Source: an uncultured Alphaproteobacteria bacterium (GTDB lineage: Bacteria > Pseudomonadota > Alphaproteobacteria > HIMB59 > GCA-002718135). From it: 51,731 bases of DNA. Positions 1 to 1,605 of this stretch are shown here, one piece after another. The notes below the pieces were generated by a model. The model was not told the DNA's origin and searched no databases. It saw nothing but the letters and a program-made list of their open reading frames with translations. Every line of letters starts with the position of its first letter. Position 1 is the first letter of the stretch. The translations under genes and the position numbers were made by a program. The stretch is from contig CACJZA010000002.1 of the NCBI GenBank assembly GCA_902597795.1, positions 1 to 51,731 on the forward strand, given 5' to 3'.

Positions 1-619
1 TTGATATTGGTATGAGGGAGTAAGTATTTAATTCCCTACCACAATAATTAGCATCATCATTATCTTGTCTTTCGTCTATAGTTCCGTCACAATTGACCAA
101 TCCTTTCAACGGCTCAACTCTTAATTTTAAACCATATTTAGAACTAATACCTAAAAGAAACAAAGGAGGAAATTCAGCAACACCACTATGGAATTGCAAA
201 ATATGGGGATCATATTTTTGCCATTGAGACCCTTCAGGAGCATTAAAACTATATGTTACCCAAACCTCACCCAATATTCCACCATCATCTATTTGCTTAG
301 CTTCTACTCTTTTGTAAGAACCCTCATTACGATCACAGTCTTCTTCTCTTTGGAAACATTCATCTCCTGGTGCCTGAATAAAAAATGCTGTTTTCCCTAA
401 ACGAGTAGGGTTATCGACAATAGAAAAAAGTTTTATCTTGTTTTTTTTCTCATATTTTTTTAATTGTTTTTTTCCTGTCACTCTCCATGCTTCCCAACCT
501 TGAAGTGTAGTATCACTTTTTTTTATGCCTAGATTTTTCTTGTATAAATCTTTGGCATTAGAGGGCATTACAAAACTGAAGGTTAATAAAATTATTAAGA
601 TGGCACTAATTGTTTTCAT
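1..619 (-). CDS. Exported polysaccharide-lyase-like protein (3' end outside window)
   Basis: A minus-strand reading frame is open from an ATG at 619 to the window edge, about 206 codons, and has no stop in the window. The first 22 residues form a signal peptide (MKTI..., hydrophobic core, ending SNA before KDLYKK), so the product should be exported. From about residue 65 the visible part has a beta-rich, Trp/His-containing stretch (EVWVTYSF, WQKYDPHILQFHSG, EFPPLFLLG) that resembles the heparin-lyase-I-like polysaccharide lyase fold (Pfam Polysacc_lyase type) as I remember it. The assignment is by pattern only, and the catalytic C-terminal part is mostly out of view. Several Cys residues (around 89, 96, 182 and 195) suggest disulfides. 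No clear Shine-Dalgarno sequence precedes the ATG. Repeat copy A lies 133 bp upstream. Existence of the gene is very likely; the lyase function is moderate. Confidence 0.6.
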   Translation of the reverse strand, partial: MKTISAILIILLTFSFVMPSNAKDLYKKNLGIKKSDTTLQGWEAWRVTGKKQLKKYEKKNKIKLFSIVDNPTRLGKTAFFIQAPGDECFQREEDCDRNEGSYKRVEAKQIDDGGILGEVWVTYSFNAPEGSQWQKYDPHILQFHSGVAEFPPLFLLGISSKYGLKLRVEPLKGLVNCDGTIDERQDNDDANYCGRELNTYSLIPIS

Positions 620-1004
620 AAGTAACTTACAAAATATATTTTTAGGATAAATCCTTCAATAAAAATACCTGATCTTCACGCGCCATATACGCGTAATTTA
701 AATTAATAATTGTATGTTTTAATTTACATATACTACGAACTTTTTTAAAAAAGAATAAGCGAATAATATAGAGAATGCTTAAATTTTTGGGTGTTCACTC
801 ACGCGTAATTGAATGAGGACTTGTTCACGCACCGAGCAACAGAACGCCCCACTATATTCTTAAATTTTGATTCATTTCTTTTGTTTTTTTATATACCCTG
901 AGTTTGTGCGTATTAAGAAAATTTTGTTAATTATATTGAAGCTTATAAATTGCACCTTCAAATAAGTAATAAGCTATTTTCAACTCATCAAAAGTTATAA
1001 ATGG
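620..1004. other. 385-bp intergenic stretch with repeat copy A
   Basis: No convincing coding frame. The stretch holds one copy of the 99-bp repeat (752-850) and an AT-rich leader between the repeat and the gene starting at 619. That leader contains a short ACGCG-rich patch (about 677-700) and a small palindrome (AGGAT-AA-ATCCT, about 644-655). From 851 to 1004 the sequence is AT-rich and contains a T-run (about 880-892). I see no strong terminator or promoter there. Confidence 0.6.
752..850. repeat. 99-bp imperfect repeat, copy A
   Basis: This segment aligns without gaps to 1486-1584 at a constant offset of 734. By hand count about 22 of the 99 positions differ. The differences cluster in the middle, while the last block (827-848) is identical over 22 bases. 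In minus orientation it sits 133 bp upstream of the exported lyase-like gene. In plus orientation nothing codes downstream of it. It could be a duplicated promoter or leader, a structured RNA, or a remnant of a mobile element. Confidence 0.8.
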
Positions 1005-1367
1005 TTAAAAAACTTTTCTATTTAGTTCATTATTTCCATTACAAGTAATTCTATGAACATAAATATTACCACCTAATATTTCGATGTTACCAATATATTT
1101 ATTAAATAATAAGAATTCTTTATTATTAAGAAATTCCTCTAATGTTTCATATTTAGTATAAGTATAACTTTGTCCTTCATAGTCACAATTATAGAAGACA
1201 CCTTTAGCGTATCCTTTATAAAATTCTTGAAATTTGCCAATTATACTTTCAGGCTTAGCATACCAAGCTTCTCCAAAATATTCTTTAACTTCCCATTTTG
1301 TTTCTACAAAATCAGCTCTAGCATGAAAACTTATTAAAAAGAAAAATAATAAATACAATTTTTTCAT
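1005..1367 (-). CDS. Small exported protein of unknown function
   Basis: A 120-residue product that I do not recognise. Residues 1-18 form a clear signal peptide (MKKLYLLFFFLISFHARA, cleavage before DFVETKW), so the mature part of about 100 residues is predicted to be periplasmic or secreted. It has two Cys (near 60 and 109) that could form a disulfide, many aromatic residues and no membrane segment. It reads in the same direction as the exported lyase-like gene to its left. Both are preceded at a similar distance (119 and 133 bp) by copies of the same 99-bp repeat, suggesting shared regulation or a joint duplication history. The ATG at 1367 is the only start that gives the signal peptide; no good ribosome binding site is visible. 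Confidence 0.65.
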   Translation of the reverse strand: MKKLYLLFFFLISFHARADFVETKWEVKEYFGEAWYAKPESIIGKFQEFYKGYAKGVFYNCDYEGQSYTYTKYETLEEFLNNKEFLLFNKYIGNIEILGGNIYVHRITCNGNNELNRKVF

Positions 1368-1485
1368 TTTTTTATTAATATCATCATCATAAAATATTTA
1401 TCCTAAAATCGTGCGTAAAATGTGTGTAATACAAATAATAATTCTCTCAAATCAAGGCAAGTATGATATAAAATTTCTTCACGAA

Positions 1486-1584
1486 AGAATGAGCAAATAA
1501 TAAAGGAAATGCTTAATCTTTTGGGTGTTTTGGTGTGCGTAATTAAACTTGCCATTTTTCACGCACCGAGCAACAGAACGCCGC
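1486..1584. repeat. 99-bp imperfect repeat, copy B
   Basis: Partner of 752-850. In plus orientation it ends 21 bp before the start of the rhodanese gene and could form its leader. In minus orientation it is 119 bp upstream of the exported-protein gene at 1367. In this copy GTGCGT (1535-1540) can pair with ACGCAC (1561-1566) across a 20-base loop. In copy A only about four of those pairs remain, so a conserved RNA hairpin is possible but not shown. Confidence 0.8.
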
Positions 1585-1605
1585 ATATTAATGAGGTGAG
1601 AAAAT

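Follow-up and report, generated by a model that had tools for sequence, protein, structure and literature searches.

Very small inserts probably bounded by tmRNA 3'-end copies at a locus of a HIMB59 ocean bacterium

The repeat and its relation to the tmRNA gene

In this study, we analyzed a stretch of 51,731 nucleotides from an uncultured alphaproteobacterium of the HIMB59 lineage (contig CACJZA010000002.1; the window) that carries a diverged repeat near its left end. Two minus-strand genes precede a plus-strand rhodanese gene (PF00581; 1606..1971), which forms the chromosomal flank to the right of the repeats. The first gene (2..619) is cut by the contig end and codes for an exported protein of at least 206 aa, whereas the second (1005..1367) codes for a complete one of 120 aa; both open with a signal-peptide-like sequence, in agreement with the initial annotation. 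The repeat copies (752-850, copy A; 1486-1584, copy B) aligned without gaps and differed at 23 of 99 positions, close to an earlier hand count of about 22, and 17 of the 23 mismatches fell at element positions 32-72, which confirmed their reported clustering in the center. A perfectly conserved block was indeed present near the right end, but it comprised 25 bases (TTCACGCACCGAGCAACAGAACGCC) instead of 22. Similarity between the copies reached leftwards to 738 and 1472 (113 nt, 28 mismatches). In a whole-genome search with copy A, copy B was matched at E = 4e-17, which ruled out chance. A third copy, missing from the initial annotation, lies on another contig of the same genome (C32:1937-2048; 92% identity to copy A). 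The minus-strand genes start at 619 and 1367, 133 and 119 bp away from the repeat copies, and the rhodanese gene starts 21 bp beyond copy B; thus, the upstream position of both copies and the adjoining of copy B to the rhodanese gene were correctly described.

The initial annotation could name no matching element and suggested nucleotide and covariance-model searches, which gave matches in related genomes and to the alphaproteobacterial tmRNA (RF01849), respectively. Using cmscan, copy A showed a match to alpha_tmRNA that was weak when taken alone and strongest over the last ~30 nt; the Rfam scan of the region otherwise returned one chance match and no other family. Among 60 related genomes, nucleotide searches revealed matches of 106-115 nt in some and of 22-35 nt in many others, and most of the short ones corresponded to the 3' terminus of a complete permuted tmRNA gene (ARAGORN; RF01849). 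The same 23 nt terminate full tmRNA genes of sister genomes that score up to 233 bits with RF01849, and the tmRNA end (...GGGGCACCGAGCAACAGAACGCCCCA) could be aligned to the end of copy A (...TTCACGCACCGAGCAACAGAACGCCCCA). These alignments identify the conserved block as the 3' terminus of the permuted tmRNA gene (ssrA) of alphaproteobacteria. This core lies at 829..851 (plus strand) in copy A and at 1563..1585 (plus strand; GCACCGAGCAACAGAACGCCGCA, one change from tmRNA) in copy B, and the ~80 nt preceding the core of copy A are insert-specific and unrelated to tmRNA. The window copies contain merely the last ~23 nt of tmRNA rather than the full tRNA-like domain and tag frame of an RF01849 gene, and ARAGORN detected no tmRNA gene in the window. 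The genome's own tmRNA gene was not found in the 70.7%-complete assembly (best score 20.7 bits versus a cut-off of 50), and neither was folA/thyA.

Gene order in relatives was folA/thyA, tmRNA, a variable region, rhodanese, cytochrome b561-like, SspB-like, phosphoglycerate mutase, fumarase, lpxC and ftsZ, with all names except rhodanese assigned by eye. In sister genomes, the same rhodanese gene is preceded by an intact tmRNA gene. Empty sites, which are the standard proof of insertion and lie outside the requirements of Islander, were found in two of them (G027 and G001), where the tmRNA end CGCCCCA runs directly into the rhodanese leader and ATG; other sister genomes contain one or more small inserts at this point. 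In the window, the flank corresponding to the rhodanese leader of G027 and G001 comes after copy B. The window opens with a contig end (C2) that falls within the variable region, and the left junction and the tmRNA gene are outside the assembly. Islander defines an island by an intact proximal tDNA, a displaced distal tDNA fragment and an island-encoded integrase (PMC4383910). The intact proximal gene and the displaced fragment were both observed in sister genomes, whereas only distal tmRNA fragments are assembled in the window genome. Some tmRNA islands (L084 and L085) had no recognizable distal core. At L049 (G028), a block comprising arm, core and rhodanese gene has the reverse orientation with respect to tmRNA. 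The commonest plus-strand gene right after tmRNA, present at L033 (2177-2704) and many sister loci, codes for a protein of 175 aa with no Pfam assignment (MNYESELTGGHPNSLGNTIKV...), and may represent either cargo or an ancestral neighbor.

Inserts, arms and paired end motifs

Cutting at every core yielded 31 inserts between consecutive cores, and 23 of them had good cores at both ends (542-3761 bp, median 1408). No more than one ORF of at least 90 aa was present in 14 of these 23 clean inserts; 33 of their 39 ORFs were on the minus strand, and a crude rule assigned a signal peptide to many insert ORFs. The cargo ranged from trypsin-like proteases, a uracil-DNA-glycosylase-like protein, methyltransferases and bactofilin to many unknowns. 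The insert gene lists included no integrase gene at the tmRNA locus, unlike the islands defined by Islander. Related exported trypsin-like proteases recur as cargo under different arm types (L033:1-1831, L035, L037, L040, L044 and L055), and the L033 protease matches PADLOC RT-Protease models via its protease domain only.

The window contains one complete single-gene insert, or cassette, of 734 bp (849..1582) with the 120-aa protein as cargo, for which no match was found in Pfam, PADLOC or PHROGs and no viral relative. A homologous insert of 746 bp is present in L038 (cargo 93% and arm 91% identical) with its own arm and different neighbors: it is the first insert there, adjoining tmRNA with another insert after it, whereas the window insert is the last unit before the rhodanese gene. 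Thus, the same insert occupies different array positions. On its right side, the 734-bp insert ends in copy B (1472..1585, plus strand), which consists of arm and core. Copy A (738..851, plus strand) is the corresponding right end of the upstream insert, and is 90-91% identical to the arms of L033 (the third copy of this genome), L035 and L036.

Several types of right arm (~75-95 nt) are joined to one common core, and the window's type was represented by 14 aligned rows, two of them from one locus. A dyad, TAAGC-N14-GCTTA (756-781), is nearly invariant in this arm type and might be a site for a dimeric protein. The left ends, too, can be grouped into families common to inserts with unrelated cargo; that of the 734-bp insert (849..925, plus strand) belongs with the left ends of L038, L041, L034, L042 and L063. 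Arms that are 98-99% identical flank unrelated cargo twice in L041 and in L036 versus L035.

Both ends of one insert carry a matching, insert-specific motif of 8-12 nt. In the 734-bp insert it is TGTGCGTA, with a left copy at 905..912 and a right copy at 1534..1541 (both plus strand); other examples include ACGCGTC, GTGCGTAAT, GCGACTTCT, TCGTCGTAATCT and TGTGCACA. In most cases, the left motif copy lies 55-72 nt into the insert, and the right copy precedes the end of the core by ~46-51 or 77-103 nt. When ends were randomly re-paired in 5000 permutations, a test that ignores relatedness between genomes, the summed motif length was 181 for all inserts compared with 84±17 after permutation (0/5000), and 121 compared with 72±12 within the window's arm group (0/5000). 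About a third of the inserts, mostly those with degenerate cores, had no common end motif. Lambda-type tyrosine integrases use arm-type sites, that is, matched motifs on both sides of the core. By analogy, we infer that the paired motifs, including the left copy at 905..912, are arm-type sites of a tyrosine recombinase.

Origin of the inserts and source of the recombinase

Because they end in a tmRNA 3'-end core, bound inserts absent from sister genomes and share an arm among unrelated cargo, the two copies are best regarded as recombination ends, and very probably represent att junctions formed by very small integrative elements that insert at the tmRNA 3' end. Among the functions suggested initially (structured RNA, regulatory leader or recombination site), the last one is the reading that stands. 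An insert would comprise a left end with its specific motif, the cargo, an arm with the same motif and the tmRNA 3'-end core, the cargo often being one minus-strand gene for an exported protein. Integration at the tmRNA 3' end would regenerate tmRNA while placing a copy of the core at the distal end, and successive insertions could thereby build an array between tmRNA and rhodanese. The reaction would be performed by a tyrosine recombinase supplied in trans by a helper element or the host, and comparison among genomes suggests that the inserts may still be mobile. Instead of being a regulatory RNA, the repeat would thus mark a hot spot of gene swapping in a streamlined ocean bacterium, which would explain how single exported-protein genes are exchanged at one fixed point.

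The inserts might alternatively derive by decay from larger prophages or satellites that formerly had their own tmRNA integrase, with dead units now shuffled only by homologous recombination between arms. This scenario shares the site origin of the integrative-element model and differs from it in present mobility. The degenerate cores of some inserts (3-4 mismatches) and the lack of an integrase at the locus would be expected after such decay; on the other hand, cores are perfect and single genes intact in many inserts, the paired ends are retained, and compact units that preserve both ends are found repeatedly, in many genomes as well as in a second family. A purely decayed origin is possible but rather unlikely.

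With regard to the recombinase of the proposed integrative elements, Pfam PF00589 searches of the genus placed none of the integrase matches at the tmRNA locus of the examined genomes; all were elsewhere. Most genus genomes have one divergent tyrosine recombinase of 354-384 aa, beside a SIR2 gene where this was looked at, with catalytic-type motifs visible by eye. The same searches detected no apparent XerC/XerD-type recombinase in the genus (including G211, 96% complete, and G000:C17:7575-8636). It is conceivable that the cassettes are worked by this fixed SIR2-linked enzyme of ~355-369 aa, in an integron-like manner but without linkage, as it is carried by 29 of 37 mostly incomplete genus genomes (one copy being merely 47% identical). 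However, several arm types with one core in a genome are unexpected for a single enzyme, and the enzyme may simply substitute for Xer. Moreover, it is missing from the sister family f2, most of whose members have two Xer-like genes and where an insertion at tmRNA with a duplicated core nevertheless occurs (L091 versus the empty L092). We consider this fixed enzyme an improbable candidate, and the observations in f2 make a helper element acting in trans the likelier source. Scans of viral contigs for core and arm patterns gave no matches, or chance ones in coding or higher-GC sequence, and a blastn search against phages gave one marginal match; no phage or plasmid source was found. Additional integrases occur in some genomes, next to tRNA-Gly or tRNA-Leu in G003, G030 and G002. 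In the tRNA-Gly island of G030 (L144, contig C4), which has two full and one partial tRNA-Gly copies, one unit carries an integrase and the next does not; further along lie a stray tmRNA core and the 175-aa MNYESEL gene.

Regulatory explanations appeared far weaker. If the repeat were a shared promoter or operator serving merely cargo expression and duplicated by ordinary homologous recombination, the usual position of the arm on the 5' side of minus-strand cargo would be accounted for, as would its AT-rich sequence and the presence of a dyad, a possible target for a dimeric protein. Such an origin, which we regard as very improbable, accounts neither for the tmRNA core and the empty sites nor for the occurrence of matching motifs on the far (3') side of the cargo and of several unrelated arm types on one core; an additional promoter inside the arm is possible. 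A cis-acting structured RNA or riboswitch-like leader of the exported-protein genes, suggested by the distance of 119-133 bp to the minus-strand genes and by the dyad that RNAalifold draws in the 14 arms, was dropped as exceedingly improbable, since the compensating changes proposed as a check in the initial annotation occurred in 0 of 26 predicted pairs, fold energies were ordinary (z-scores -1.2 to 0.1; -1.2 and -0.9 for the plus-strand copies), the conserved block is the tmRNA end, the Rfam matches were tmRNA and a chance match alone, and the gene beside the core is oppositely oriented at L053 and L057.

Breadth and comparison with known systems

In a draw of alphaproteobacterial genomes, similar units were found in a second AT-rich marine family, f10. 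In one of its genomes (G068), the tmRNA end is followed by four more core copies spaced 0.9-1.5 kb apart. Here the units carry an arm of their own and direct repeats, and their left end restores a terminator-like hairpin. The f10 arm-core-left-end sequence was matched in 26 of 32 family genomes and 9 of 12 genera, up to seven times per genome, some of these matches being the tmRNA end itself. Independent arrays of cassettes attached to tmRNA were observed in f10 at L123, L124 and L148-L167, where the arms differ and every left end has a terminator-like hairpin. No such repeats were detected in 17 other genomes at the sensitivity used.

In integrons, gene cassettes are lined up in arrays; most hold a single gene, every cassette has a recombination site of its own, and the recombinase is encoded outside the cassette. 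In contrast with integrons, the insertion point here is the tmRNA 3' end, and each unit has two conserved ends instead of one attC. PF00589 searches revealed no tyrosine recombinase (intI) near the array, no attC ends (GTTRRRY / RYYYAAC) were seen by eye in arm or core, and the DNA folds no better than shuffled sequences. It is possible, although doubtful, that streamlined ocean alphaproteobacteria of at least two distantly related families use a gene-capture system that is anchored at tmRNA and comparable in function to integrons, with mostly one-gene cassettes bearing two matched ends being moved by a recombinase encoded elsewhere. The matched end motifs offer a direct handle for identifying it.

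Islands attached at tmRNA are well known (PMC4383910, PMC3146451, PMC12595487). Similar in layout are the ssrA-specific islands of Dehalococcoides, which lie in tandem downstream of tmRNA, each with a ~20-bp ssrA 3'-end copy and adjoining conserved sequence at its boundaries, and in about half of the cases have no integration module (PMC3146451). Unlike the inserts described here, however, they are multigene, with rdhA cargo, their modules carry the serine-recombinase genes dsiB/dsiA, and the available parts of that report describe no insert-specific paired end motifs (PMC3146451). The Pseudomonas islands I23, I44 and I55 are likewise immediately downstream of tmRNA with direct repeats at both ends and have no transfer genes, one having been shown to be transferred by a helper jumbo phage, but each encodes a tyrosine integrase and defence systems, and all are far larger (PMC12595487). 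Very small additive units with tRNA repeats are described for 'Ca. Methylopumilus', also a streamlined aquatic bacterium, whose fGI-2 islands range upward from 330 bp with one CDS and similarly contain mostly unknown genes; they use tRNA-Lys rather than tmRNA, and an arm or paired-motif anatomy is not among the features given in the available parts of that study (PMC10872708). The same parts describe tycheposons, at second hand, as tyrosine-recombinase-based cargo elements at tRNA genes of marine bacteria; these are 4-200 kb long and occupy tRNA sites, so that inserts of 0.5-3.8 kb at tmRNA without a recombinase fall outside this group (PMC10872708). A published study of HIMB59 islands does not mention tmRNA. 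Since island searches that require an integrase, such as Islander (PMC4383910), miss such units, this route of gene exchange may be undercounted in abundant marine lineages. Compared with the tmRNA islands known from the open-access literature, the small size of these inserts, the lack of an integrase, the matched end motifs and the use by two families are unusual.
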